From NCBI RefSeq assembly GCF_034377285.1, contig NZ_CP139715.1, positions 3,332,001 through 3,396,000 on the forward strand: a stretch of DNA of 64,000 nucleotides, read 5' to 3'. This document shows positions 34,700 through 61,331 of the stretch, in pieces. Both the position numbers and the translations under genes were made by a program. Source of the DNA: Thalassobaculum sp. OXR-137. Its GTDB lineage: Bacteria > Pseudomonadota > Alphaproteobacteria > Thalassobaculales > Thalassobaculaceae. Position 1 is the first letter of the stretch. Every line of letters begins with the position of its first letter. The notes under the pieces were generated by a model. The model did no database searches, was not told where the DNA came from, and worked only from the letters and a program-made list of their open reading frames with translations.

Positions 34700-34703
<4 letters not shown>

Positions 34704-37700
34704 ATCTGGCCTGCGATCCACGCGGTTTCGGGTTTCTCGGGGGTGGGGTCGGTCCGGCGGCCGGCTTCCAGCCGTACCGCCAGGTCGTCGAGGGTCTGGG
34801 TGCCGAGCAGCGCCGGCAGGTCCACGGTCACCCCGAACTCCCGTTCGATGAGGGTGCGGACCTCCATCGCCAGCAGGGAGTCGATGCCGAGGAGGGGCAG
34901 GGGCGCGTCGGTCTTCACCCGGTCGGCCGGGAAGCCCAGGACCTCGCCCAGACGCTGGATCAGCCAGGCGCGGGGCGAGGCCGCGGGTCCGGTATCCGGA
35001 CGGCCGAGGGAGATAGGCGGTTCGGACGGCGCCACGCCGTCGAACAGCCCGGTCGCCCGCCGGCTGCGGTACAGGGCGGCGAACCGCGGCCAGTCCACAT
35101 CCGCCAGCACGGTCTGAGGGTCACCGGTTTCCAGGACGGCCGGCAGGTGCGACAGCAGGCCGTCGACCGGGAGGGGGGTGAGACCGATCCGGCGGAGGTC
35201 GCGCCCGGTATCGGCGTCGACCAGCGTGGTGTCGGCGAGGGGGCCGAGATCGAGGCTGCTTGCTGGAAGGCCGAGCGCCCGGCGATGGGCGCAGAGCCCG
35301 TCGAGAAAGGCGTTGGCCGCGCTGTAGGAGATCTGGTGGCGACCGCCCCAGACGCCGGCGATGGACGCGCTGCAGAGGAAGAAGTCCAGCGGGTCGTTCA
35401 GGGTGGCCTCGTGAAGCGCCCAGGCTCCGGCCGCCTTGGCCGACAGGGTTTCCTCACATTCGGGCCAGGTGAGGTCGGCGAGGTTGCGCCGCTCGCCCAG
35501 TCCGGCCGTATGGACCGCCCCGCGCAGCGGCGGCCCGTCGGACCGCCAGCGGTCGATCTGGCGCACGAGCGCCGGGCCGTCGGCGATGTCTAGGGCGGCG
35601 ACGTCCACGCGGGCGCCCAGCTCCCGCAGCGCCGCAACATGCGCCCTGGCCTCGGGGGTGGAGGGGCCGCGCCGCCCGATCAGCAGCAGCCGTCCGGCTC
35701 CCCGGCGGGCCAGCCACAGGCCGATCGCCCGGCCCAGACTCCCGAACCCGCCGGTGATCAGGTAGCTGCCGTCCGGGCCGATGGACGGCGTGTTGCCCGT
35801 GTCGGAGATCCGACGGACCAGACGCGGCGCCAGGAGGCCGCCGTCCCGGACCGCTGCCTCCCGCGGTCCGTCCTCCAATAGAAGGACCGAGGCGAGCAGC
35901 GGAGCGAGGGCGTCCGTGGGCGTCTCGCCCGGCAGATCCAGCAATCCGCCCCAGACGGACGGCGCCTCCAGCGCCAAGCTGCGGCCGAACCCCCAGAGAG
36001 CGGCGTCGGCGAAGCCATCCAGGCGATCCTGCGGCGACGCGGCCATGGCGTCGCGGGTGACGATCCAGAGGGGCGCCGGATGCGGCAGCGCTTGCAGGGC
36101 CTTGGACAGCCCCAGGACGCTCGCCAGTCCGCCGCCGCGCGGGTCCGACAGGCCGTCCGACCCCGACGCTGCGGTCTCGTCCAGGCACCAGAGGTGGACG
36201 ACGCCGACCAAGGGACCGATCTCGTCGAGCAGGGCCCGGGCGGCGGCCTCGTCCCCGGGGAGCAGGTTCCGGCGGGCACCGTTCAGCGGCGCCTTGTAGA
36301 TCGGCGTGCAGCGCTGGCCCTGGGCCTCCAGGGCGGCGCAAAGGGCGTCTCCCATCCCGCCGTTGTCGGACAGGATCAGCCAATGGCCGGTCGGCTTGGA
36401 GGTCGGGGGTAATGGGGCGGGCACCGGCTGCCACGCGAGGGCGTATCGGCCGAGCGCAGAGGGTCGGGCGAAGTCGGGTGCGTCGACCCAGTAGCGCTCG
36501 CGCTCGAACGGATGTCCCGGCAGATCGACCCGGCGCAGCGGCAGTCCGGCATAGAGGGCGCGCCAGTCCGGGCCCGAACCATCGACATAGCGACGGGCGA
36601 CAGCCTCCCACTCCTGCACGCTGGCGGTGGCTGCGGATGCCGGGGTCGGGTCGGGTCGGGCCGCGGCGGGCGCCGTTCCGGCCAGGGCAGCGGCGTGGTC
36701 GCCGTCGGTCAGCCAGGCGTTCAGGGAGGCGGCGAGGTCCGCGGTGTCCCGCCCGAGCACGGCCAGCCGATGACCGAAATGATCGCGGCCGCAGGCGGCG
36801 GTGAAGCAGAGATCGGCGGCGGCGTCGTCGCTATCGGCCAGGGCATCGGCCGTCGTGCGGGCCAGCACCTTCAGCGCCGCCGGGCTTTTCGCCGAGAGCG
36901 GCAGAAGGTAGCGGCTGAAGGCGAGGATGCCGCGGCCGGCCGGCGGCGGGGCCTGTTCGACCACGAGATGGGCGTTGGTGCCGCCGAAGCCGAAGGAACT
37001 CACGCCGGCCCGCCGCACACCGTGGGGCCGCGGCCAGGGCTCGCGGCCGGCCGGCAGCCGCATCGCCGTCTGCGCCCAGTCGATGCGCGGCGACGGCGGG
37101 ACCGAATGCAGGCTGGCGGGAACCTCCCCCGCGGCCAGGGACAGCACGACCTTCTGCAGTCCGACCACGCCGGCGGCGGATTCCAGATGGCCGATATTGC
37201 TCTTCACCGAGCCGATCATCAGCGGCCGGGACCGGTCTTCCGCGCCGAACACCGCCTGCAGCGCGCCGGCTTCGATCGGGTCGCCCAGGGCCGTGCCGGT
37301 GCCGTGGGCCTCCACATAGTCGATATCCGCCGGGTCCAGATCGGCCTGGCGCAGGGCGCGGCGGATCACCCGCTCCTGGGCCGGTCCGTTGGGGACGGTG
37401 AGGCCGCTGGTGCGTCCGTCCTGGTTGACCGCCGAGCCGCGGATCACCGCCAGGATCCGGTTGCCGTCGCGCCGCGCCTCGTCCAGCCGCTTGAGCACGA
37501 CGATCCCGCAGCCCTCGGAGCGCACGAAGCCGTCCGCCGCGGCGCCGAAGGCCTTGCAGCGGCCGTCCGGGGCCAGCATCCGGGCGCGGGAATGGTTGAG
37601 CGTGACCGTGGGGTCGAGCAGCAGGTTCACGCCGCCGGCGACCGCCATGTCGCACTCGCCGTTCCGCAGGCTCTGGCAGGCCTGGTGGATCGCCACCAGC

Positions 37701-40700
37701 GAGGAGGAGCAGGCGGTGTCGATGGCGAGGCTCGGCCCTTCCAGCCCGAGGAAGAAGGACAGCCGGTTCGCCGCCACGCTCAGCGCGTTGCCGGTGCCGA
37801 GATAGGCGTCGATGGCCTCGGGGTCCCGGGTAAGCCGGTGCAGGTAGTCGTTGGTGCTGATGCCGATGAAGACGCCGGTCTGGCTGCCGGCCAGGCTGCT
37901 CGGCGGAATGCCGCCCTGTTCCAGCGCCCGCCAGCACACTTCCAGGAGCAGACGCTGCTGCGGGTCCAGGTGGCGGGCCTCGCGGGGCGAGATGCCGAAG
38001 AACACCGGGTCGAACAGCTCGATCCCGTCGACGAACCCGCCATGGCGGGTCTGGATCGTCCCGGGGAGCTCCGGGTCCGGCGAGTAGAAGCGCGTGTTGT
38101 CCCAGCGGCTGGCCGGAATTTCGGTGATCGCGTCCACCCCGTCGCGCAGCATTTCCCAGAACCCGCGCGGATCCGTCACGCCGCCGGGCAATCGGCACCC
38201 CATGGCGACGATGGCGATGCCATCGCTCGGGGCCACCGACACCGGGTCGGATCGGACGGCTCCGGCGTCGGCCAGGTCGGCGAGCGCCAGAACCTGATCG
38301 GCGAGACGCGCCGGGGTCGGGTGGTCGAACGCCAGCGTGGCGGCGAGCGGGCGGCCGAGATCGCTCTGGAGCCGGTTGCGCAGCTCGATCGCGTTCATGG
38401 AGTCGAGGCCCTGGTCGAAGAAGCCGCGATCCGGGTCGAGGGAGGAGGGCTCGACCCCGCGCATCGCCGCGACATGGGCGAGGATCGCGCGCAGCGCGGC
38501 GGCCGGCCGATCGGCGGGTGGCAGTGCTGCGAGCGCCGACGTCAGTCGGGCGACCGGGGTCGCCGGCGCCGGCAGGGCGGCGGTGCCGCCGTCGATCAGC
38601 GGATGGGTCAGCCGGCTGTCCCGGCGCCGGGGCAGCTGGGCGAGATGCGGGACGTCCAGGGCGAGCGCGCGTTCGAACGCATCGAGGCCCCTGTCCTCGA
38701 CAATCGGGGCGAGCCCGTGCTCGGCGAGGCGACCGGCCAGCCGCGCGTCGGCGGACGCGTCGGACCAGGCGCTCCAGCTCACGCTCTGCGCCGTTAGGCC
38801 GCGGCTGCGGCGGACCAGGGCGAGCGCGTCCAGGAAGCTGTTGGCTCCCCCATAGGCGGCCTGGCCCGGATTTCCCAGCAGGCCGCTGGCCGAGGATAGG
38901 AGCACGAAATGGCGCACGGGGTGGGTGGCGGTCAGACGGTGCAGGGCCCAGGCGCCGAGCACCTTCGGCCCCATCACCGCCGCGATCCGATCCGGCGACT
39001 GGGTGTGCAGGAGACCGTCGTCGAGATGCCCCGCCGCATGGACGATCCCCCCCAGCGCCGGCCAACCGCGGGGCAGGGACGCGACGGCGGCGGCAAGCGC
39101 GGCCTCGTCGGCGACGTCGACCGGCTCGATCCGGATCTCGACCCCCCGTGCCCGCCAGTCCTCGATCCGGGCGGCCGCCGTCCCGTCCGGCGCGCGGCGA
39201 CCCAGCAGCAGGAGATGGCGCACGCCGAGGTCGATAAGCCGGCCGACGAGCAGGCGCCCCAACCGGCCGAGACCGCCGGCGATCAGCCAGGTATCGCCGA
39301 GATCGGCCTGGTTCGCCTCGGGCAGGGGCGTCGGATCGAGGCGCAGGGCGAAGCGCTCGGCGCCGCGCCGCATGATTTCGTCTCCGGGGAGGGCAAGGGC
39401 CATCTCCGTGGAGATCTGTTCGGCCGCCGATCCCGAGGTCCCGTCGACGTCGAGAAGAGTGACGCGCCAGTCCGGATGCTCCCGGCGCAGCGACCGTCCC
39501 AGGCCCCAGACGGTCGCCTGCAGCAGACCGCCGCCGGTGCCCTGCGACGCGCCGACGCCGTCCCCGGTAACGAACCGGAGCGTGACCGGGCGCCGGTTCT
39601 GGCGCGCCAGCAGACGGGCGAGGGCGGCGAGGCGACCGTGCAGATCGGCCAGCGGCGCGGCGATGTCGGCAGCGGAAAGCCCGTTCGGATCCGGCAGGTC
39701 GAGCGGCCAGCAGCACAGGACGGTCAGGGGGGCTGTTCCCTCGGGCAAGGCTTCGGGAAGGTCGCCGATCCTGAGCGCGACCTCGGCCCCGGCGGTTGTC
39801 AGCGTCCGCGCCACCACGGCACCGGTCCCCGACCGGTCGGCGAGAACGAGAAACGCGCCTGCCATGGGTTCCAGCGGCGGTTCGGCCGGCGCCGCAACCC
39901 AGAAGGGCACGTAGGCCCAGTCCGCCACATCGACTGCCGCCGCGGGCACCCGGTCGGGCGCGAGATCCAGCAGGGCGCGCCGCAGACCGGCGGCGGCATC
40001 GCATTGCGCCGGACGGGGCGGCAGCGGGAATCGCTCCCGGCGGAGCGGGTAGCCCGGCAGATCCGGAATCTCGGCCCTCGGCACGGCGGGTTGGAACGCG
40101 GCCCAGTCCGGGTCCAGTCCGGCGGTGTACAGAGCGGCCATGGTCTCGGTCACGGACGTCCAGTCGTCCTGCCCGTCCCGCAGGCTTGCCAGCCATAACC
40201 CGTCCCCGACGTCGTCGGTCTGGGTGCCGAGGGCGGTGAGCAGCGGCTTCGGTCCGATCTCCAGGCACACCCGGTGGGTCGCCCGCAGGTACCGCAGACC
40301 ATCGGCGAACCGGACCGGGGCGCGCAGATGCCGGGTCCAGTACGCCGCGTCGGGGGCGGTTTTCAGAACCGCGCCATCGACGTTGCCGATGAGCGGTATC
40401 GACGGGGCGGCGAAGTCGAAGCGGCGCGCGACGACGTGGAACGCCTCCAGGATCGGGTCGAGCAGCGGCGAATGGAACGCGTGTGAGACCGGCAGGTATC
40501 GGCTGCGCAGCCCGTCCGCCTCCAGACCGCGCCGGATCTCCTCCAGAGCCTCGCGTCGGCCGGAGAGGACGGTGTTGCGCGGCCCGTTGACGGCGGCGAC
40601 CGAGACGCTTTGCGAGCGCGCGCCGATCCGTTCGGCCGCCGTCGCCTCGTCGGCCTGTACCGCCAGCATGGCCCCGTCCAGGGGAAGTCCCTGGATCAGC

Positions 40701-43700
40701 CGCGCGCGGGAAGCGATCAGGCGCAGGCCGGTCTCCAGGTCGAAGACTCCGGCCAGGCAGGCCGCCACATACTCGCCTACGCTATGTCCCAACAGGATCG
40801 ACGGCCGCACTCCCCAGCGCTGCCAGAGCCGGGCCAGCGCGTATTCCAGGGCGAACAGAGCTGGCTGGGTATAGGCGGTCTGATTGAGCTGCCGGTCGTC
40901 GTCGCCGAACATCACCGACAGCAGCGAGCGGTCCAACTCCGTCGCAAGCATCCGGTCGCAACGGTCCAGATCGTCCCGGAAGCCACCGTCGCTCTCGTAG
41001 AGTGTCCGGCCCATGCCGAGATACTGGGAGCCCTGGCCGGTGAACAGGAACGCCACGCCCGGCGCCTGGGACGGCGCTTCGACGGCCGTGGCACCGACGA
41101 GCTGCTCCGCCAGCCCGTCCAGCGTCTGCGCCGTCACGGCGATCCGGTGGCGGAACTGCGCCCGGCCCGTCGCCGCCGCCCGGCACAGGGCGGCGGGCGG
41201 CAGATCGGCGGCTTCCCGGCAGAGCGCGCCGTACCGGCGGGCGAGGTCGCCCAGGGCATCGGGATGTGCGGCGGACATCGCCAGCAGGTACCGGGACCGG
41301 TGGGCTGCCGTTTCCGGCTGGGCCAGGTCGTCTTCCGGTGCCTCTTCGAGGATCACGTGGGCGTTGGTGCCGCCGAAGCCGAAGGAACTCACCCCGGCGC
41401 GCATCGGCCCACCCGAGGGGAAGTCCTGCAGCTCGGCCGGTACGGAGAACCGGGTTCCGTCCAGCCGGATCAGCGGGTTGAGCGCATCCAGCCCGGGCTG
41501 CGGCGGGATCTTGCGGTGCTGCAGGCACAGCACGGCCTTCGCCAGCCCCGCGATCCCGGCGGCAGCCTCCAGATGGCCGATAGCCGCCTTCGCGGATCCG
41601 ATCAGGCAGGGACGGCCGGCCGGTCCGCCGGGACCGAGGACCGCCTGAAGCGCCTCGACCTCGATGGGGTCGCCGAGCCGGGTGCCGGTGCCGTGCGCCT
41701 CCACATAACCGATGGTGTCCGCCTCGACCCCGGCAGCCGCGAGCGCATCGCGGATCGCCCCCTGCTGGGCGGCGGGATTGGGCGCGGTCAGCCCGTTGCT
41801 GCGCCCGTCCTGGGTCACCGCGGAGCCGTGGATGACGGCGAGGATCCGGTCCCCGTCGCGCCGGGCCGCCGCCAGGTGCTTGAGCACGACGACGGCGCAG
41901 CCTTCCCCCCGCACATATCCATCGGCGGCGGCATCGAACGTCCTGCTGCGACGGGTCGGGGACAGCATCCCTGCGCGTTCCAGCGCCAGCTGGAGATGCG
42001 GACCGCCGATCAGGTTGACCCCGCCGGCCAGGGCCACCGCGCAGTCGCCGTTGCGCAGGCTCTGACAGGCCTGGTGGACGGCCACGAGGGACGACGAACA
42101 GGCGGTGTCGATGGCCAGGCTCGGGCCGCGCAGGTCGAACTGGTAGGACAGCCGGTTGGCGGCCATGCTGAACGCCATCCCGGTACCGCTATAGGCCCCG
42201 ACCAACCCCTCGGCGTCGCCGCGGCTGACGCGGTCCAGGGCGAAATCGGCCGAGGAAATCCCGATGTAGACACCGGTGCGCGACCCCTTCAGGCGGTCCG
42301 GCGGAATCCTTGCGTGTTCCAGTGCCGACCATGCCGTTTCCAGGAGCAGGCGCTGCTGCGGGTCCATGTCCCGGGCCTCGCTCGGGGGCAGTCCGAAGAA
42401 CCCGGCGTCGAAACAGTCGGCATCCTCCAGGAAGCCGGCCTCGACCCCCGGCAGGCGCGCATCGGCGCGGATCGCGCAGCGTCCCTCGCGCAGCAGTTCC
42501 CAGAAGGCGGCCGCATCGGGCGCGCCGGGCAGACGGCAGGCCAGGCCGACGATGGCGACCGGGTCGTGCCGGGTCGGGCCGTCAGCGCGGGGCGCCGGTG
42601 TCGCGTCCGCTGCCGTCAGGTGTTCGCAGAGGGCGGCGATGGACGGATGGCGCCAGAGCAGCGTCGGGCTGAGCGGTCCGGTGCCCAGACGGTCCTCCAG
42701 CGCACCGACCAGGGCGACGGCGGCGCGGGAGTCCAGGCCGAGGTCGGCGAAGGGCGCGTGCCGATCGATTTGACCGAACGGGCGTCCCGTCGTCCGGGCG
42801 ATGTATCCGGCCAGCCAGGACTGCAGGTTGGCTGCCTCCGGGACCGAGGGGCCGGGCGCTGCGACGGGGTCGGCGGCCCGCCACCGGGCGATCGGTTCGA
42901 GGCTGTCGTCCAGGAAGGCCTGACGGCAGGCGCGGCGCTGAACCTTGCCGCTGGAGGTCTTGGAGATCCGCCCGCGGCCAATCACCTGAATCTCCGAGAC
43001 CGCCAGTCCGTGCCGTTCCGAGAGAGCGCCGCGGAGCGCGCCGAACACCGGCGACCAGTCGTGCCGGCGGGTTCCGGCCTCGGCCAGGATTACGAGACGT
43101 TCCTGTCCGTCGCGGTCGACCGAGACGGCGGCGCAATGCTCTCGGCGGAGGTCGGGGCAGGCATCCAGGACGGTCCATTCGATGTCCTGGGGGTAGTGGT
43201 TCACCCCGGCGATCACGATGAGGTCCTTCAGTCTGCCGCTGACGTGCAACTCCCCGTCCCGCAGGAAACCGAGATCGCCAGTGCGCAGGAACGGGCCGGC
43301 CGCCGGATCGTCTGCGAGACGGGCCCTGAACGTCGCCTCGGTGTCCTCCGGGCGCTGCCAGTAGCCGAGGGCAACGCTGGGGCTGGCCACCCAGATCTCC
43401 CCGACCCGGTCGGGCGGACAGGCGGCGCGTGTCGTCGGATCGACGATCCGCAGGTCGGTGCCGGGCCGGATCCGGCCGCAGCCGACGGACACGCGCCGGA
43501 CCTTCTCGGGCGTGTCGGCGTCGGCCGGGATGACCGCGTCGCGCTCGAGCGCGTCGGCCCGCAGGGTCAGATAGGTCGGTGCCGCGCCATGGGTCTTGGC
43601 ACTGACGAACAGGGTCGCCTCCGCCAGCCCATAGGCCGGGTAGAAGGTCTCGGCCCGAAAGCCGCAGGGAGCGAACGCCTCGGAGAACCGGCGCAGGGTC

Positions 43701-44662
43701 TCGGCCCGCACCGGCTCGGCGCCGTTGCCCGCGACCCGCCAGCGGGACAGGTCCAAATCCTCGCGCTGCGTGCCGGTGACCCGCTCCAGGCAGAGCTCGT
43801 AGGCGAAGTTCGGGGCGTGGCTGTGGGTGGCGCCGAAGCGCGAGATCGCCTCCAGCCAGCGCGAGGGACGCTTCAGCAGGGTGAGCGGCGAGAGGACGTA
43901 GCAGTCGGTGCCGCTGTAGAGCGGCCGCAGCAGCCCCTCCACCAGACCGTAATCGTGGAAGTAGGGCATCCAGGTGACCGACACGCTGTCGCCGGCGCAG
44001 TCGAACCCGTCATGCAGATAGCGCAGGTTCGCCAGCACGTTGCCGTGGGTCAGCATGACCCCGCGCGGCGTTCCGGTGGAGCCGGAGGTGTATTGCAGAT
44101 AGGCCAGGTCGTCGGCGGCGATAGGCGGCCGCGGCTCGGTTTCCACGTCCGCCAGCGCGAGGGTATCGGTCGCCAGCCAGTGGACGCCGGGCAGGGCGTC
44201 GGCCATGCGCTCGGCCAGATCCTGTTGCAGGGCGGCCGTCGTCAGGATCGCGTCCGCCTCCGCATCGGCGACGATCGCCTGCAGGCGGGGCAGGGCATGC
44301 TTCAGGCGGACCCCGTCCGGCGGCGGTACCGGGACCGCGACGATGCCGGCCTCCAGGCAGCCGAAAAAGGCGGGCAGCACGTCCAGTCCCGGCGGATAGA
44401 GCAGCAGCGCCCGGCTGCCCGGCGCGCGCTTGGCCAGCAGCCCGTTCGTCACCGCGCGGGCGCGTCGACGCAGCGTGGGGTGGTCGAGGCTCGCGGCGAT
44501 CTCGCGGCCGTCCTGCAGGAAGTAATAGCGCCCCGAACTTCCGCCGGCACGGCGCTCAAGCAGGCCAGAGAGGGTCCGCGGCGCTTGGGCGCCGGTCGCG
44601 GGATCGGTGCCGAGCGCGGTATCGCCGGCGGTCAGAGCCTTCTGCACGTGTCGTCGCGCCAT
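34700..44662 (-). CDS. FAAL-loaded type I PKS (FAAL-ACP-KS-AT-KR-ACP-KS-KR-ACP)
   Basis: A 3,320-residue start protein of the assembly line. Order: fatty acyl-AMP ligase (1-590; [27 protein letters not shown]); ACP (LGLDSRAA near 652); KS1 (DTACSSSL near 853); AT ([19 protein letters not shown] near 1293; SHAFHSP, malonyl type); KR1 (GGLGRLG near 1795, LDD motif so B-type, with Ser, Tyr, Asn); ACP ([10 protein letters not shown] near 2088); KS2 (DTACSSSL near 2317, EAHGTGT, NIGHLES); no AT, although the flanking linkers are present; KR2 (GGFGSLG near 2970, lacking LDD); ACP ([10 protein letters not shown] near 3256). No DH, ER or aminotransferase. It should activate a free fatty acid as acyl-AMP, load it on ACP and add two reduced C2 units. 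Its TGA overlaps the NRPS ATG by 4 bp. ATG 44662 has only a weak ribosome-binding site. Confidence 0.96.
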
Positions 44663-45000
44663 GCGGATACCCGGGAGCCGAGATGAAAAGGGCGTTACGC
44701 GACAAGGGTTCGCATAACATGTTATTCATACTCGTATAGATTGCGCCTCATCACAAGAGGGTTTTTCGCGGGATCGTATTAACGTGGATCGTCTGAGTTG
44801 ACCGCAGTGTCCCTGATGCCCGCAGTAAAATTGAGTTAAGGGCAGAAAATCGGCGGTCGATGGCGCAGGGCTGCGATCTAGAGCATCGCCGCACGATGCA
44901 ACTTTTATGATCTATCCCAGGCCCTCAGGGTTTCATATAAGGATATGAGCTAGTGGATTTTTCCACTCATACTAATGTGTCGGCGAGGGTGGGCCAGCCT
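44663..45000. promoter_or_regulatory. divergent regulatory region between PKS/NRPS operon and exporter
   Basis: About 290 to 340 bp, clearly more AT-rich than the surrounding genes. It must contain the promoter of the 44-kb minus-strand operon and probably that of the exporter. It holds the 16-bp palindromic site at 44712 and an inverted repeat GCATCG-N5-CGATGC (44883-44899) followed by AACTTTT in the exporter leader, whose role is unknown. I could not place convincing -35/-10 boxes. No gene is seen. Confidence 0.6.
44712..44727. promoter_or_regulatory. palindromic putative operator upstream of PKS/NRPS operon
   Basis: GCATAACATGTTATTC contains a perfect 12-bp palindrome, ATAACATGTTAT (44714-44725), 50 bp before the ATG of the FAAL-PKS gene. 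It matches the 16-bp palindrome at 47980 at 15 of 16 positions. The regulator is not identifiable in the window. Confidence 0.6.
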
Positions 45001-46659
45001 ATGGACCTGTTGAAACTCATCCGCCGCGAGTCTAAGGCGTCGTGGCTGGGCTTCGCGTTCCTGGCGGCGATATCCGGATTGGCGAACGCGCTGATCCTGG
45101 CGGTGATCAATCTGGCGGCGAGCGATGCCGCCGCGATCGACGACGACCGCCGCACCTATCATCTCTCGATCTTCCTCGCGGTCACCGGCATCTACATCGT
45201 CTCCCAGCGCAGCGTGATGATCTCCTCCACCCGGGAGGTCGAGGAGATGATCCACAAGATCCGGATGCGGCTGATCGAGAAGATCAGGACGGCGGATCTC
45301 GGCCCGCTGGAACGGATCGGCCGGTCCTTCATCTATGCCAGCATCAACAAGGACACCCTGACCCTGTCCCAGGCGGCGCAGTCTCTGGTGGTCGGTGCGC
45401 AATCGGCCATCCTGATGCTGTTCACCCTGCTGTACATCGCCTGGCTGTCGCGGATCGCCTTCGTGGTCTGTGTCACCTTCATCGGCGTCGCGTCGTGGCT
45501 CTACATGAAGAACCTGCGGGGGCTGAACGCCGACCTGCAGCTGGCGGCGGCCGAGGAGAATCGGCTGTTCGACCTGCTCACCGACCTGCTGGAGGGGTTC
45601 AAGGAAGTCCGGATGAACGCCGCGCGCAGTGACGCGCTGTACGCGGATCTGGCCGCTATCTCCGCCCATGCGGCGGAAAAGAAGAAGGAGAGCCAGTCCG
45701 GGATCGCCCGAAGCTTTATCTTCTCGCAGACGATGTTCTATTTCCTGGTCGCCGCGATGGTCTTCCTGGTGCCGCAGGTCGGCAAGATCTTTCACGACCT
45801 GGGCAGCAGCTATCCTGAGGTGGTGATCCAGACGGCGACGGCGACCCTGTTCCTGATCGGGCCGGTCAGCTTCCTGGTCAACTTCATGTCGATCTTCGCC
45901 AACGCGAACTCGGCCGCCGAGAACATCGAGCGATTGGACACGACCCTTTCGGCGGCGGTCAGTGGCAGCCGCGACGGGCCGGCGGACCCGCTCGGTCCCG
46001 ATTTCGAGGAGTTGGAGCTGCGCGGCGTGAGCTACCGCTACAGCGACCCGAAGGCGGATCGCCCCTTCGTCCTCGGCCCCCTGGACCTGCGGGTCAAGCG
46101 GGGGGAGATGATCTTCGTAACGGGCGGCAACGGGTCGGGGAAGTCGACCCTGATCAAGTTGCTGGCCGGTCTCTACTACCCTGCCGCCGGCCGCATCCGG
46201 ATCGACCGGCAGGATATCGGGCCCGAAACCTACGAGGCCTACCGCAACCTGATCTCCATCGTGTTCGCCGACTTCCATCTCTTCAGACGGCTCTACGGCA
46301 TCGACCACAGCGACCGGGACAGGGTCCGCGCGCTGATGGAGCGTATGGAGATCCAGGACAAGGCCCAGCTGATCGACGGGGAGTTCTCCACCATCGAACT
46401 CTCTACCGGCCAGCGCAAACGGCTGGCCCTGGTGGTCAGCCTGCTGGAGGACCGGCCGATTTACATCTTCGACGAATGGGCGGCCGACCAGGATCCCGAG
46501 TTCCGGCGCAAATTCTACCGCGAGATCCTGCCGGAGATGAAACGGGCGGGGAAAACCATCCTCGCCGTCACCCATGACGATCATTATTTCGACGTGGCCG
46601 ACCGGCGCATCCACATGACCGAAGGCCGGCTGGTGGAGATGCCGACGGCAGGCGACTGA
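45001..46659 (+). CDS. cyclic-peptide export ABC transporter (SyrD/PvdE type, fused TM-ATPase)
   Basis: A 552-residue exporter with an N-terminal membrane domain of about six helices (residues 1-310) and a C-terminal ATPase. Walker A is GGNGSGKSTL, the signature is LSTGQRKRLAL, and Walker B runs into FDEWAADQDP, a hallmark of the SyrD/PvdE lipopeptide and siderophore exporters. It would move the finished or precursor lipopeptide from cytoplasm to periplasm at the inner membrane. It is divergent from the PKS/NRPS operon, fitting export of its product. I chose ATG 45001 (MDLLKLIRRESKASW) because the family begins this way; a GTG at 44953 with AAGGA upstream would add 16 residues. Confidence 0.93.
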   Translation: MDLLKLIRRESKASWLGFAFLAAISGLANALILAVINLAASDAAAIDDDRRTYHLSIFLAVTGIYIVSQRSVMISSTREVEEMIHKIRMRLIEKIRTADLGPLERIGRSFIYASINKDTLTLSQAAQSLVVGAQSAILMLFTLLYIAWLSRIAFVVCVTFIGVASWLYMKNLRGLNADLQLAAAEENRLFDLLTDLLEGFKEVRMNAARSDALYADLAAISAHAAEKKKESQSGIARSFIFSQTMFYFLVAAMVFLVPQVGKIFHDLGSSYPEVVIQTATATLFLIGPVSFLVNFMSIFANANSAAENIERLDTTLSAAVSGSRDGPADPLGPDFEELELRGVSYRYSDPKADRPFVLGPLDLRVKRGEMIFVTGGNGSGKSTLIKLLAGLYYPAAGRIRIDRQDIGPETYEAYRNLISIVFADFHLFRRLYGIDHSDRDRVRALMERMEIQDKAQLIDGEFSTIELSTGQRKRLALVVSLLEDRPIYIFDEWAADQDPEFRRKFYREILPEMKRAGKTILAVTHDDHYFDVADRRIHMTEGRLVEMPTAGD

Positions 46660-46677
46660 CCGCGCCGGAGATAGGGT

Positions 46678-46707
46678 TTGAGTATCCAGTTATTATATGT
46701 CTATGAT
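46678..46707 (+). promoter_or_regulatory. candidate sigma70-like promoter for the SPFH gene
   Basis: TTGAGT, an 18-bp AT-rich spacer and TATGAT in the gap after the exporter gene. It is a reasonable match to the -35/-10 consensus and the gap is AT-rich, but this is visual matching only. Confidence 0.35.
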
Positions 46708-46802
46708 TGAAGGTCGGTATTCATAAGCAATTTATGGCACTCCCTCGACTTCTCACGGGGGCTGGTGCCTGAGCCGGCGTGATGGAGCCCGGAGCCGGCC
46801 GC

Positions 46803-47888
46803 ATGAACGCTCTGAAAGCCCTGTTTCTACGCAATCTGCCGGGAGTGACCGTCACCGTCATGATCCTGGCCTTCCTGGCGATCTATTTCGCGCCGAACAG
46901 CGTGATCACGATCCCGGCCGGCTCTGTCGGCGTGCTGTGGAAGCGGTTCGACGGCGGGACCGTCACCGACCGCTTCTACCGGGAGGGCAACCGTTTCGTG
47001 CTGCCCTGGAACAAGATCGTCAAATACGACGCCCGCATGCAGCGGGTGAACGAGAACTACGACATCATCTCGTCGAACGGTCTGACCATCGGGGCGAACA
47101 TCACGGTGCGCTACCGCATCGCCCGCGAGCGGATCGGCCTGCTGCACAAGTATCTCGGGCCGGACTACCTGACCACCATCCTGATGCCGAAGATCGGCGC
47201 CATCGCCCGGGCGGAGGCGGCGAAATACTCCCCGGTCCAGCTCTACTCGACCAACCGTGAGGATGTGGAGGAGGCGATCCTGGTCCTGGCGCGGCGCCAG
47301 CTCGAACAGGTGAGCGAGGATGTGGCGGCGACCGAACGCGGGCAGCGGGTCTCGGAAGGGCTGACGGATCTTGCGGCTGGCCCGGGAACGCTGATCGAGC
47401 TGCACGATGTGATGTTCCGCAGCATCGCCCTGCCGTCCCTCGTGCGCGACGCGATCGAACGCAAGGAGGAGCAGTACCACGTCAATCTGGAATACGACTT
47501 CCGCATCGAGCGCGAGCGCAAGGAGAGCGAGCGCAAGGCGATCGAGGCGCTGGGCATCCAGGAGTTCCAGCGCATCGTGAATGACGGGATCACCGACGCC
47601 TATCTGCGCTGGAAGGGGATCGACGCCACCCTGCAGCTCGCGCTGTCGAACAACAGCAAGATCGTGGTCATCGGTTCCGGCCAGGACGGGCTGCCGATCA
47701 TTCTCGGCCCGATAGAGGGCGGCGGCCCGGCCGCCGGACAGCCGTCGATCGACGCGGACCTCCGCACCAGCCCGACCTCCGGGCCCCCCGCGGCTCCCAA
47801 TCAGACGATCGAGCGGGCGCCGGGCGTCTTCTCCAACACCAACGCCGCCGATCTCGGCCTGGACCGATCCGGCCCCGCCAGGCCGTGA
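46803..47888 (+). CDS. SPFH/prohibitin-family membrane protein
   Basis: 361 residues from ATG 46803, chosen for GGAG 8 nt upstream; a GTG at 46779 would add eight residues. One N-terminal transmembrane segment (residues 8-28, VTVTVMILAFLAIYFA) is followed by an SPFH/band-7 domain (about 30-220: GSVGVLWKRFDGG, GLTIGANITVRYRI, LIELHDVMFRSIALP), a charged helical segment rich in Glu/Arg/Lys (225-260) and a Pro/Gly-rich, low-complexity tail. Family members form oligomeric membrane scaffolds. It is transcribed in the same direction as the exporter, 143 bp downstream, and before the DUF697-like gene. A role in membrane integrity during lipopeptide production is inference. Confidence 0.88.
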   Translation: MNALKALFLRNLPGVTVTVMILAFLAIYFAPNSVITIPAGSVGVLWKRFDGGTVTDRFYREGNRFVLPWNKIVKYDARMQRVNENYDIISSNGLTIGANITVRYRIARERIGLLHKYLGPDYLTTILMPKIGAIARAEAAKYSPVQLYSTNREDVEEAILVLARRQLEQVSEDVAATERGQRVSEGLTDLAAGPGTLIELHDVMFRSIALPSLVRDAIERKEEQYHVNLEYDFRIERERKESERKAIEALGIQEFQRIVNDGITDAYLRWKGIDATLQLALSNNSKIVVIGSGQDGLPIILGPIEGGGPAAGQPSIDADLRTSPTSGPPAAPNQTIERAPGVFSNTNAADLGLDRSGPARP

Positions 47889-47912
47889 GCGACGATCCGG
47901 CCGCCCCGCGCC

Positions 47913-47935
47913 GTCTCGGTTCCGACGTCCGAGAC
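47913..47935 (+). terminator. possible hairpin terminator after the SPFH gene
   Basis: Inverted repeat GTCTCGG-N9-CCGAGAC begins 25 bp after the SPFH stop codon. There is no U-tract after it, so intrinsic termination is uncertain. Confidence 0.35.
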
Positions 47936-47968
47936 CGGGTGCGAGACCAGGGGCGCCGCGAAGAAGAT

Positions 47969-47996
47969 TTGTAATCGATGAATAACATGTTATTCT
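47969..47996 (+). promoter_or_regulatory. candidate promoter of the DUF697-like gene
   Basis: TTGTAA (47969-47974), a 16-bp spacer and TATTCT (47991-47996). Each box matches the sigma70 consensus at four of six positions. The 16-bp palindrome covers the spacer and -10 box, which would suit repression. Confidence 0.35.
47980..47995. promoter_or_regulatory. perfect 16-bp palindromic putative operator
   Basis: GAATAACATGTTATTC is a perfect palindrome 97 bp before the GTG of the DUF697-like gene. It shares 15 of 16 bases with the site upstream of the PKS/NRPS operon. A second small inverted repeat, CTCTC-GCATA-GAGAG (47995-48009), abuts it. Confidence 0.65.
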
Positions 47997-48091
47997 CTCG
48001 CATAGAGAGTAATTCTGACGGGCAGTATGTTCTTTAAGGTCGTGATCCTCCGTCGGACAGGACACCGGTTCATGCAAGGGAGGACCCCGAC

Positions 48092-49009
48092 GTGGCTGAG
48101 AACACCGAGGACGTTCGGGGACTGAAGCGCGAGATCACCAAACTCAAGCGCGAGGTGAAGGCTGCGCAGACCGCCCGCAACCGGGATGCCGAAAAGCTGA
48201 AGGGCGAAGCCGGGGCGGCGAAGGCCGACGCGGCGCAGTTCAAGAAGGAATCCGCCGATCGGGCGAAGCGGCTTGCAGGTCTGGAACAGGACCTGAAGGC
48301 CGCCCAGTCCAAAGCCGACAATCTGAGCAAGGAGTTGGACATGTCGAAGGAAGAGACCAGCCGGCTCCAGCAGCAGGTTGAGGCCGCCAAGACCAGCCCA
48401 TTGGCGGCCGAGTCGACGGGGAGCGACGATGCCTCCCCGACCAGCAACCCCGTCACCGGAAAGGAAGACAGCACCATGAGCCCTCAACCCGATCCCGCCG
48501 TGGAAGATCAGATCGTCCACTACGAGCATGCCAAGACCGCGATCAAGCAGCAGTCTCGCGTGAAGGCCAACCAGATCGTCGCGACCTATTCCGCCATCAG
48601 CGCCGGTGTCGGCATCGTGCCGGTCGCGGTGATCGATATCGCCGGTCTCGCCGCGGTCCAGCTCACCATGTTGAGCAAGCTGGCGGACGCCTATGGGGTG
48701 AAGTACTCGGGCAATCTCGGCCGCACGATCCTGTCGGCCATCCTGGGCAGCCTGATCCCCACCTCGCTGAAGGTCAGCACCATCGGCCTGATCCGGTCGG
48801 TGCCGCTGTTCGGGCCGCTGCTCGGCCTGGTCACCATGCCGGCCTATTGCTGGAGCGTCACCTACGCCATCGGCACGGTCTTCACCGAGCTGTTCGAGCG
48901 CGACGGCGACCTGGAGAACCTGGATGTCGAGGACACCAAGGCGCAGGTGAAGAAGGTGCTGGCCTCGGTCTCCCCCAAGCAGGCCGAGACCGCCGCCAAG
49001 GCCGCCTGA
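48092..49009 (+). CDS. coiled-coil plus DUF697-like membrane protein
   Basis: 305 residues from GTG 48092, supported by GGGAGGA 7 nt upstream. Residues 5-105 are a Lys/Glu/Ala-rich heptad-type coiled coil. A Ser/Pro/Asp linker (105-140) follows. The C-terminal domain (about 145-280) resembles the DUF697 family: a charged start (YEHAKTAIKQQSRVKANQIV) then hydrophobic stretches (SAGVGIVPVAVIDIAGLAAV, GLIRSVPLFGPLLGLVTMPA). Such domains are found with Era-like GTPases, but no GTPase motif is present here. The function is unknown. The palindrome it shares with the PKS/NRPS operon suggests co-regulation and possibly membrane protection. Confidence 0.8.
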   Translation: MAENTEDVRGLKREITKLKREVKAAQTARNRDAEKLKGEAGAAKADAAQFKKESADRAKRLAGLEQDLKAAQSKADNLSKELDMSKEETSRLQQQVEAAKTSPLAAESTGSDDASPTSNPVTGKEDSTMSPQPDPAVEDQIVHYEHAKTAIKQQSRVKANQIVATYSAISAGVGIVPVAVIDIAGLAAVQLTMLSKLADAYGVKYSGNLGRTILSAILGSLIPTSLKVSTIGLIRSVPLFGPLLGLVTMPAYCWSVTYAIGTVFTELFERDGDLENLDVEDTKAQVKKVLASVSPKQAETAAKAA

Positions 49010-49100
49010 TCCCCGTAGGCGACCTGCGCGCTCGGACCCAGGCGGTCCGGGCGCCGCCGTCCCGCCGGCCTTGCCGGGCGGGAAAGAGGAACCCTGTGCG

Positions 49101-49286
49101 ATGGACTATTTCTGGCCGCCCCGTCTGACTTTCGCGACCATCGTCCTGATCTATTTCCTGGTCTGCGCCCTGGTGGGGCTGTACGGCCGCGACCGGCTGA
49201 TCGGCTTCTGGGGGTCCTTCGTAGCCGCCTATATCTTCTCGCCGTTCTTCATCTTCATCTTCCTGCTTCTCACCCGCCGGCGGTAG
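49101..49286 (+). CDS. small two-helix membrane protein
   Basis: 61 residues from ATG 49101, with AGAGGA 10 nt upstream. Two hydrophobic segments (about 10-28 and 40-58) flank a short charged loop (GLYGRDRL), and the protein ends in a positive tail (TRRR). It starts 91 bp after the DUF697-like gene on the same strand and may be co-transcribed. I do not recognise the family. Confidence 0.65.
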   Translation: MDYFWPPRLTFATIVLIYFLVCALVGLYGRDRLIGFWGSFVAAYIFSPFFIFIFLLLTRRR

Positions 49287-49292
49287 ACCCGG

Positions 49293-49703
49293 TCACGGCG
49301 CGCTGCAGGAGAGCATGGCCAGCTCGCCGTCGCGCAGGGTGACGGTCGGCTGCCCCAGGAAGGTGACGCCGTCGCTGCAATACCACCCGATGGACAGGGA
49401 CTTGGCGGCGGCGCTCACCGGGCCGCAGATCGTCTCGCGCCGCATGCGCGAGCGCTCCGCCGCGTCGAACCGGTCGCCGGCCACCTCCGGCAGGGCGACA
49501 GGGCAGATCCATCGCCCGTTGCACTGGCTCGACACCCAGCCCAGCCCCGAACACCACTGGTCTTCCGAGCCGTATTTCGCGGTCGCGATCCGGATCTGTA
49601 GCGCGCAGCTTCCCGCGTCCCGCCCCGGCAGACAGGCGGCCGAAACGCCGGCCGGCATCGCGAGCAGCAACGCCAGGAGGAGGGGCGGCGTTAGGGAGCG
49701 CAT
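49293..49703 (-). CDS. secreted cysteine-rich hypothetical protein
   Basis: 136 residues from ATG 49703, with GAGGA 9 nt upstream. A clear signal peptide (MRSLTPPLLLALLLAMPAG, cleavage near VSA-A) precedes a mature part with eight cysteines, consistent with up to four disulfides in the periplasm or outside the cell. I recognise no catalytic motif. It converges with the small membrane protein gene, 6 bp apart, so the intergenic space is too short for a conventional terminator. Confidence 0.75.
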   Translation of the reverse strand: MRSLTPPLLLALLLAMPAGVSAACLPGRDAGSCALQIRIATAKYGSEDQWCSGLGWVSSQCNGRWICPVALPEVAGDRFDAAERSRMRRETICGPVSAAAKSLSIGWYCSDGVTFLGQPTVTLRDGELAMLSCSAP

Positions 49704-49789
49704 GGGCGTCGTCCTCGTCTCGGTCAGCACGCCGCATCAGTGTATATTAACGAGAATGATGATCAAATAATTCCCGTTTAAGGTGTTTT

Positions 49790-59539: not shown

Positions 59540-60835
59540 TCAGCCCTGATCGTAGTTGGGCGTGTCCGCGTAGCTCTCCAGCTTGCACTCGTCGCCGGCG
59601 GAGGAGCGGATCGACTCCGGATCCGACCAGCTCAGGATGTTGAAGTAGTCGGTGTCGTCGCGCGGCTTGGCGTTGCCTTCCGCCAGGTAGATCGTCTGCT
59701 GCACCTGGTGGGAGTTCGCATCGATCACCGCATCGAAGTGCTGCATCCGGTCTTTTGCGGTCATCACCCGGCCTTCCAGGGCCTTGATGATCTTCATGTT
59801 GTCGGTGGAGCCGACCTCCTCGACCACCCGCAGCAGCTCGCGCATGGCGACATAGCCGTTATAGGTGACGTTGCCGGGCACGCTGATCCGCGTGGTCGGG
59901 TACATCTCCTGGTACTGCTTCACGAATTCCGGAACGCCCGGCAGGTCGAGATAGTGGTACCAGGTGGTGCCGAACACGCCGAAGGCGGCGTCTGCGCCGA
60001 GACCGAAGATATCCGGCCAGTCCTGCTGGTTGTTGATCCAGGCCGGCTTGCGGTCGAGGCCCATGTCGTGGACCTGCTGGCGCATCACCTTGAAGTCGTC
60101 GCCGCCGACGGCAGCGGCCACCACGTCCGGCTTCATCTGCTGGATCTTCAGCAGCACGCTCGACCAGTCGCGGGTGCCGACCGGGATGGCGATCTCGTCC
60201 ATGACCGTGGCGCCGTATTCGGTGGCCACCTTCTTGGTCGCGGCGTTGGTGTTCTGGCCCCAGACATAGTCGTTGTAGATCAGCAGCCAGTTCTTGCCGA
60301 AGCTGTTGATGGCGTTGCGCGCGGCGGCCTTGGAGAAGTTCTCCCCGTTGCCGTCCCACACGAACTTGACCCGGTGGCAGTTCGCGCCGCTCTCGGTCGG
60401 CGAGCTGGAATTGGTGTTGAAGTAGACGCAGCCGTATTTCTGCGCCACCTGGCTGATGGCGTTGGCAGCACCCGACTGCACCGCCCCGACAAGGAAATGA
60501 ACGTTCTCGCGGGTGATCATGCGTTCGGCGACGCGGGTGCCGGTCTGCGGGTTGGTCTCGGTGTCCATCCAGACCGTCTCGACCTTGCGGCCGAGCACGC
60601 CCCCCTTCGCGTTGAACTCGGCGACCGCCATTTCCGAGCCGCGCTTCTCGGCCTGGCCGGAATTGGCGAACTGGCCGCTGGCGTCGTGGGTGAGGCCGAT
60701 GCGGATCGGCTTGTCGGAGGCGGCGGCATAGACCCGGTTGTGGGTCCAGGGGCCGAACAGGGCGGCGCCGCCCGCCGCACCGCCGAGGAGAGAGGTCTTC
60801 AGGAAACTGCGTCGATTCACTGCCTTGTTGGACAT
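59540..60835 (-). CDS. Tat-exported substrate-binding protein (LivJ/AmiC-like)
   Basis: 431 residues. A twin-arginine signal (NRRSFLKTSLLGG) with Ala-rich core and cleavage near VYAAA leads into a periplasmic-binding-fold type I protein: IRIGLTHDASGQFANSG, GGVLGRKVETVWMDTETNP, MITRENVHFLVGAVQSG. This is the solute receptor for the LivHMGF transporter. Tat export suggests folding before secretion. The ligand cannot be read from sequence; binding proteins of this group also take amides, urea and aromatic acids. It lies 73 bp after the cupin gene. Confidence 0.93.
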   Translation of the reverse strand: MSNKAVNRRSFLKTSLLGGAAGGAALFGPWTHNRVYAAASDKPIRIGLTHDASGQFANSGQAEKRGSEMAVAEFNAKGGVLGRKVETVWMDTETNPQTGTRVAERMITRENVHFLVGAVQSGAANAISQVAQKYGCVYFNTNSSSPTESGANCHRVKFVWDGNGENFSKAAARNAINSFGKNWLLIYNDYVWGQNTNAATKKVATEYGATVMDEIAIPVGTRDWSSVLLKIQQMKPDVVAAAVGGDDFKVMRQQVHDMGLDRKPAWINNQQDWPDIFGLGADAAFGVFGTTWYHYLDLPGVPEFVKQYQEMYPTTRISVPGNVTYNGYVAMRELLRVVEEVGSTDNMKIIKALEGRVMTAKDRMQHFDAVIDANSHQVQQTIYLAEGNAKPRDDTDYFNILSWSDPESIRSSAGDECKLESYADTPNYDQG

Positions 60836-60908
60836 GGGTGTTTCCTCCTGTTTTGATTTTTTCGCCCGGTCCCGTTGATCGGCCGGTGCGTTGGTCCTCC
60901 GCCGGCTC

Positions 60909-61331
60909 TTACGGCTCGACGGAGACGGTCTCCGGGTCCGCGGGGACCAGGATTTCCATGGCGGTGTAGTCGTCTGAATATTCGATGACCCGGTGGAGGA
61001 TGCCCGGCTCCTGATACATCGCCGTGCCCGGCTCCATCAGGATCTCGCCCTGGCCCTCGAACTCCACCCGCGCCCAACCCTTGAGCACGTAGACCATCTG
61101 GAAATCGACCTTGTGGTAGTGCAGGTCACCCTTGCCCGGGCATGGGCCGTTCGGGCGGTGGATGTGGGCGCGGAACTTGCCGCCGGTCTTCTCCGCCATG
61201 CCAAGGTCGCGGTAGTCGAAGAAGCCGCGAAAGCCCGGCACCCAGGCGGCATCGCGCTCGTGCTGCACATGGAAGGCGCCACGGCCGAAGCCCTTCGGCT
61301 CGAACTCGTCCCCCTGTTCGGAACCGGCCAT
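60909..61331 (-). CDS. cupin-domain protein
   Basis: 140 residues from ATG 61331, with GGGAG 9 nt upstream; ATG 61367 would add 12 residues but run into the inverted repeats. A single beta-barrel cupin: metal-ligand candidates are in HIHRPNG and LHYHKVDFQMVYVLKGWARVEF, and PGILHRV in the second motif. It could be an isomerase, lyase or ligand-binding protein. As first gene of the transporter operon, divergent from the RpiR regulator, it probably acts on the imported compound. Confidence 0.88.
   Translation of the reverse strand: MAGSEQGDEFEPKGFGRGAFHVQHERDAAWVPGFRGFFDYRDLGMAEKTGGKFRAHIHRPNGPCPGKGDLHYHKVDFQMVYVLKGWARVEFEGQGEILMEPGTAMYQEPGILHRVIEYSDDYTAMEILVPADPETVSVEP

Follow-up and report, generated by a model that had tools for sequence, protein, structure and literature searches.

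Four adjacent genes for membrane proteins at positions 45001–49286 of a 64,000-nucleotide stretch of the marine bacterium Thalassobaculum sp. OXR-137 (contig NZ_CP139715.1, 3,332,001–3,396,000; the whole stretch is hereafter called the window) belong to a conserved unit that recurs beside nonribosomal peptide synthetase (NRPS) and polyketide synthase (PKS) genes in several phyla. They encode, in this order, an ATP-binding cassette (ABC) exporter, an SPFH protein, a DUF697 protein and a small protein, and are referred to below as the block. We propose, with a probability of roughly 60%, that the four genes form a module exporting the peptide assembled by the neighbouring genes; the set is probably common export equipment, as opposed to immunity genes peculiar to this bacterium. 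To our knowledge, the exit route of large amphipathic nonribosomal peptides from Gram-negative cells is poorly known, and hypothetical genes near such clusters are easily overlooked. As a recurrent unit, of which no description was found in the literature searched, the block can serve as a genome-mining marker, and it gives a context for DUF697, which is rarely named in that literature. An initial annotation of the window had described four same-strand genes beside assembly-line genes, and this arrangement stands: all four reading frames are open and lie on the + strand, adjoining the PKS/NRPS genes.

45001–46659, +: ABC exporter of the cyclic peptide export type, membrane domain fused to ATPase (TIGR01194, ABC_tran)
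46803–47888, +: prohibitin-like SPFH (Band 7) protein (PF01145)
48092–49009, +: DUF697 protein with a coiled-coil-like N-terminal half (PF05128)
49101–49286, +: 61-aa protein with two hydrophobic stretches, judged by eye (open reading frame (ORF); Nisaea homologue)

Linkage of the four genes in class and family

In a survey of 385 genomes of the class, TIGR01194 exporters were found in 25, condensation domains in 43, DUF697 proteins of the block type in 17 and SPFH proteins of the block type in 18 (thresholds of E ≤ 1e-70, ≤ 1e-20, ≤ 1e-12 and < 1e-60, respectively, the last chosen after a gap in the scores had been seen). SPFH scores are bimodal, with 20 places at 2e-61 or better and the next at 1e-26. 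The exporter is present in all 18 SPFH-positive genomes (p 1.3e-25) and in 16 of the 17 DUF697-positive ones (p 4e-21), and 16 of the 18 SPFH-positive genomes contain DUF697 (p 3e-25); these p values, like those for condensation domains in SPFH-positive (14/18, p 1e-11) and DUF697-positive genomes (12/17, p 3e-9), treat genomes as independent, though they are related. An exporter gene lies at most 3 kb away at 16 of the 20 SPFH places, and at the remaining four the nearest one is 33–44 kb off or on another contig. The exporter thus counts as a member of the unit and is more than the neighbour of a three-gene protection set.

Among 36 genomes of the family, the DUF697, SPFH and small proteins each occur in the same seven, all of which have condensation domains (p 8e-4), and the exporter is present at all nine block loci of these seven genomes; in another eight family genomes condensation domains occur but the block does not. 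The initial annotation had suggested checking whether homologues of the last three genes accompany NRPS clusters. They do so throughout the family sample and with exceptions in the class sample, where 4 of the 18 SPFH-positive and 5 of the 17 DUF697-positive genomes have no condensation domain; one of these condensation-negative loci (L185, genome G328) has an NRPS/PKS-like ORF nearby. The initial annotation had named homologues in relatives lacking an NRPS cluster as evidence against its self-protection reading, and these exceptions count against that reading in part.

The positive family genomes include Nisaea denitrificans DSM 18348 and N. nitritireducens DSM 19540, in which the NRPS genes adjoining the block are 63–65% identical to those of the window. 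At these orthologous loci the order exporter–SPFH–DUF697–small protein is kept, and the block is inverted relative to the PKS gene. A divergent version, in the order DUF697–small protein–exporter–SPFH, is found close to a different NRPS in N. denitrificans; three other genomes of the genus have it as well. N. denitrificans contains two different NRPS loci with two block versions, whose exporters are 72–79% versus 42% identical to that of the window.

Recurrence on contigs, plasmids and across phyla

A scan of the genome_contigs collection with the DUF697 alignment found 92 loci, of which 80 were kept, and a scan with the single protein found no relative. As these 80 loci were found through DUF697 patterns of block members, they are not a random sample, and the class survey is the less biased test. 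Within the DNA examined, the exporter is present at 34 of the 80, SPFH at 40, the small protein at 40 and NRPS/PKS genes at 45; among the 31 loci flanked by 8 kb or more on either side, the counts are 16, 18, 19 and 21. Larger regions were also taken for 14 of the 17 DUF697-positive class genomes (16 regions), with G146 left out and G000 and G018 already covered.

All four genes stand together at 41 loci, where they span 2.5–11 kb in many orders and share one strand in 36 cases. These loci belong to Pseudomonadota, Thermodesulfobacteriota, Campylobacterota, Verrucomicrobiota, Lentisphaerota, Bacteroidota (L153) and Electryoneota. Three loci (L094, L096 and L100) had been dropped as copies of L040, L046 and L043, and the set includes close relatives, namely those from Nisaea, two Tistrella, two Puniceibacterium and two Opitutae. 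NRPS/PKS genes were detected in the tested stretch at 28 of the 41. By comparison, none of the four genes was found in any of 20 hand-picked 20-kb control stretches from eight genomes, one of which gave an NRPS/PKS-like match. In a plasmid collection, all 17 records with the SPFH type carry DUF697 0.5–3.7 kb away, 15 of them from Azospirillum, and Azospirillum and Skermanella plasmids provide annotated examples beside NRPS genes. A Rhodobacteraceae plasmid has genes for the small protein, an ABC protein, prohibitin and DUF697 in a row; no NRPS is named there, and the row adjoins a large gene annotated as phosphopantetheinyl transferase.

The divergence of the four proteins is also correlated, as measured by their pairwise distances (r 0.46–0.68; 0 of 2000 permutations in Mantel tests). 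In a quick exporter tree of 61 rows, reduced from 71 by removing near-copies or short rows, 15 exporters have no block genes in their 3-kb stretch, and 13 of them form one group apart (support 85/100), and exporters with and without block genes are separated by two label changes. The two misplaced rows come from genomes in which the SPFH type of the block lies on another contig or 43 kb away.

A gene for a Peripla_BP_6-type (LivK-like) protein lies directly 3′ of the SPFH gene at 12 of the 41 loci. It was confirmed by Pfam at five (L125, L141, L162, L173 and L182), and at the other seven (L129, L145, L102, L103, L114, L158 and L047) it was detected with an in-house profile built from four of the confirmed proteins, which also matches control L231, window positions 59543–61036 and L041, all away from the block.

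Features of the four block proteins

The exporter scores 349.5 bits against TIGR01194 (curated cut-off 286.2), which agrees with the SyrD/PvdE-type exporter named in the initial annotation, and 101.5 bits against ABC_tran. We set its start at the ATG at 45001; the ORF possibly begins at a GTG at 44953. The translation contains the Walker A motif GGNGSGKST and an intact FDE after Walker B. Like exporters of the PvdE/SyrD/YojI type, the protein is encoded beside NRPS genes; it differs in that exporters of this type without block genes mostly form the separate tree group described above (13/15). We know of no SPFH partner at the PvdE and SyrD loci.

The second protein is a member of the SPFH superfamily (PF01145 Band_7, 65 bits; gathering threshold 23.6). 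Its profile (A1) reaches solved prohibitins, the best being 9urz_B (E 4.6e-13), and a single-chain AlphaFold2 model (pLDDT 83.8) resembles prohibitin/HflKC scaffolds in having an N-terminal helix (residues 12–33), an SPFH fold and a long helix (212–262), followed by a low-confidence tail. The N-terminal helix probably sits in the membrane. HflKC partners FtsH; the block SPFH protein is instead encoded together with an ABC exporter, a DUF697 protein and a small membrane protein, and its ring is a proposal of this study. Matches to NfeD families, and with them the SPFH–NfeD pair, were absent at E ≤ 0.1 from the four block proteins and the products of the next three genes.

The third protein matches PF05128 (DUF697) over residues 145–289 with 46.1 bits (gathering threshold 27.7), and all 90 aligned DUF697 members match this family at E ≤ 0.001. 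A model of the C-terminal 178 residues (pLDDT 80.5), made from an alignment with 89 of the 99 usable homologues, consists entirely of helices and has no PDB match at E ≤ 0.001 (best Foldseek E 0.48). A PDB sequence search with the whole alignment returned ten weak matches, mostly coiled coils over the N-terminal half. A YcjF-type identity was rejected, as TIGR01620 gives 19.6 bits against a cut-off of 160.

The small protein scores above no family's own cut-off, and its homologue in Nisaea is 66% identical. In an alignment of 33 members (A5), G35 and P48 are invariant, with the proline in the second hydrophobic stretch, and a conserved loop resembles G-R-x-R-x-x-G-F-W-G. Three Pfam families are each matched by just one of the 33 members (E ≤ 0.01). 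AcrZ is a small helper of the AcrB pump, and the block protein resembles it in being a tiny membrane protein whose gene accompanies that of a pump; a single member of the 33 matches AcrZ weakly (E 0.0066), which is not evidence of homology, and AcrZ has one hydrophobic stretch in contrast to two in the block protein.

The flanking assembly line and a shared palindrome

The following features lie next to the block:

10929–34721, −: NRPS of 7930 aa (domain scan)
34700–44662, −: acyl-ligase/PKS gene heading the assembly line (domain scan)
44712–44727: palindrome between the PKS gene and the exporter gene (repeat search)
47980–47995: second copy of the palindrome, upstream of the DUF697 gene (repeat search)
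49293–49730, −: small protein, probably secreted; gene convergent to the block (Nisaea homologues)

The PKS gene encodes an AMP-binding domain first, followed by two ketosynthase domains, and in total one AMP-binding, two ketosynthase, two KR and one acyl transferase domain with three carrier stretches. The condensation domains of the NRPS span G000:C1:3344831-3366502, within an 8063-aa frame. Because the assembly line begins with an acyl-ligase-type domain, its product is probably a lipopeptide. A 2025 genome paper names this first domain a co-enzyme A ligase and already notes the adjacency of exporter and prohibitin at the OXR-137 locus (PMC12016528). The terms “DUF” and “SPFH” are absent from the main text of that paper, and in its available portion neither the small protein nor the shared palindrome nor the recurrence of the unit is mentioned (PMC12016528).

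The initial annotation had stated that the third block gene shares a palindromic site with the lipopeptide operon, and a second copy does precede the DUF697 gene. GCATAACATGTTATTC stands before the PKS gene and GAATAACATGTTATTC before the DUF697 gene, and the two are identical at 15 of 16 bases. The 12-base core occurs twice in the window at ≤ 2 mismatches (0.01 expected), and the exact core occurs at these two places only in the 5.65-Mb genome. The shared palindrome, ATAACATGTTAT, appears as an operator-like site before the PKS and DUF697 genes. Imperfect counterparts upstream of Nisaea DUF697 genes have weak to moderate support: that of N. denitrificans has four mismatches (65 of 2000 shuffles equally good), and the other three have three mismatches each (2, 8 and 4 of 2000).

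A very likely didemnin cluster flanked by the block

On plasmid pTM3 of Tistrella mobilis KA081020-065, the gene order is membrane fusion protein (MFP) adaptor–resistance-nodulation-division (RND) pump–DUF697–small protein–exporter–SPFH, divergent from a two-module NRPS gene. The genes scanned in the pTM3 assembly line encode two ketosynthase and ten AMP-binding domains and a terminal thioesterase, and the didemnin assembly line has 11 NRPS and two PKS modules (PMC10811503). Beyond the assembly line, a CAAX-protease gene (PF02517) has all seven residues named for DidK (D203, E204, R208, F233, H237, H274 and N278; PMC10811503) at one constant offset. Judged by these sequence features, the pTM3 cluster flanked by the block is very likely the didemnin cluster. 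The published work was done on strain L17, and knock-outs were made in the didemnin producer (PMC10811503), in which the four-gene unit would offer an export complex open to testing. As a separate observation, the MFP and RND genes (L192:15389-19684, named from sequence reading) precede the Tistrella block on the same strand, and similar pairs are found at L047, L119, L175 and L179.

Proposed export module and alternative explanations

In the proposed export module, the ABC exporter would move the peptide or lipopeptide out of the inner membrane, and the SPFH protein would probably enclose it within the membrane as a ring or cage, in line with the many-copy assemblies of solved prohibitins. 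The DUF697 and small proteins would be membrane subunits that tie the exporter to this scaffold or tune it, comparable to AcrZ and AcrB, and a Peripla_BP_6-type protein encoded after SPFH would fit a periplasmic hand-over of the product. The physical complex, ring formation, topology, direction of transport and substrate are what we infer here. Proximity labelling of the glycopeptide exporter Tba in a balhimycin producer recovered the SPFH protein paraslipin (PMC11960670). This finding is a precedent for an SPFH protein near a peptide-antibiotic ABC exporter and supports an export module; the case differs in that the available text reports no conserved gene unit (PMC11960670). A more far-reaching version, which we consider possible but doubtful, would make the block a general chamber in the inner membrane, found across phyla, through which large peptide natural products are exported. 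In it, a prohibitin-like ring would seal a lipid patch holding the exporter, DUF697 and the two-helix protein would provide a gate or an anchor, and the product would in many lineages pass to a periplasmic binding protein. If true, this would be a first biochemical role, in peptide export, for DUF697 and for the unnamed small-protein family.

Several observations weigh against an export module. Absences in the class survey are provisional, as the searches scored the best three exporter, four condensation and six SPFH or DUF697 candidates per genome. Seven of the 25 exporter-positive class genomes are without the SPFH type, and therefore the exporter family does not need SPFH. Within the DNA examined, DUF697 occurs without exporter, SPFH, small protein and NRPS/PKS at 18 of the 80 contig loci (3 of the 31 with at least 8 kb of flank) and without any of these partners at 3 of 16 class loci. 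At 13 of the 41 four-gene loci, the tested stretch has no NRPS/PKS match; two of these have such genes on an adjoining stretch (NRPS/PKS on L039 for L040, and for L047 a PKS-like ORF on L056, at most ~8 kb from the SPFH gene) and one is a 9.6-kb contig, so that ten remain. The Mantel correlations cannot tell functional coupling apart from common ancestry.

The initial annotation had suggested that the last three genes may protect the membrane from an amphipathic product. In such a self-protection block, these three proteins would keep the inner membrane of the producer stable in the presence of its product, independently of transport. What stood is that they belong to a conserved unit tied to NRPS/PKS genes beyond chance; what did not is their separation from the exporter, which is present in 18/18 SPFH-positive class genomes and at most 3 kb away at 16/20 places. 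SPFH proteins organise membrane domains, DUF697 is also a domain of YcjF-type proteins (here with the weak TIGR01620 match), and YcjF is linked to the Psp membrane-stress response, all of which would suit protection, as would the DUF697 genes found alone and a product that starts from an acyl-ligase-type domain and is thus probably a lipopeptide (PMC12016528). We nevertheless regard protection independent of transport as unlikely and prefer export over immunity, because the exporter belongs to the unit and because toxicity of didemnins toward their producers has not been demonstrated (PMC10811503), although such a lack of proof does not amount to testing the block genes. The unit serves different peptides, one of them without known harm to its maker, and export is the simplest common function; in some clusters, self-protection could still come along as a by-product or be the chief task.

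Less probable still is an anchoring of the assembly line, with the SPFH scaffold tethering the NRPS/PKS enzymes to the membrane next to the exporter and synthesis and export taking place together. The Tba study speculates about biosynthesis in a membrane microdomain (PMC11960670), but at 10 of the 41 loci the block has no NRPS/PKS match in the tested stretch, some stretches being short, or in a known neighbour. That the accessory genes are housekeeping membrane genes travelling passively with a mobile cluster is very improbable. The cluster does lie within genomic island GI13 (PMC12016528), and the block was not found in the five other genomes of the genus of the window that were searched; however, its four genes have stayed together at 41 loci, across many orders and several phyla, the 20 controls contain none of them, GI13 is not predicted by the authors, in the text available, to be associated with transfer (PMC12016528), and the co-occurrence statistics contradict a passive association.

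Additional observations

The OXR-137 assembly has 5,646,840 bases in three contigs, with 68–71% G+C in the window and two other stretches; the genome paper gives 5.65 Mb, three replicons and 67.0% G+C (PMC12016528). The product of 49293–49730 has homologues, 52–54% identical, that adjoin the block at both orthologous Nisaea loci, and none was found at the remaining four-gene loci searched. A role in anti-phage defence was rejected: PADLOC matched the exporter only, with four ATPase-containing families (best mad3, 4e-20) that we take as ATPase cross-hits, and nothing for the SPFH, DUF697 or small proteins.

Second DUF697 copies were seen at L049:1248-1682, L051:723-1166, L053:13396-13827 and L052:10552-10986. 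In G016 and G019 the NRPS genes separate the second copy from the first, at a distance of ~29 kb, and in G020 and G017 a similar copy stands beside NRPS genes on a contig other than that of the first copy. Short DUF697 genes of the same type occur alone at L127, L142, L149, L171 and L183, in unrelated surroundings as read from plain ORFs. A radical SAM protein is encoded at L174:7886-9814, in a four-gene locus without NRPS/PKS in the examined stretch, a hint that the block may handle further classes of peptide as well. Finally, G023 and G024, single-contig 1.5-Mb genomes of the genus of the window, each have one condensation match (E ~1e-26) in a frame of ~3560 aa.

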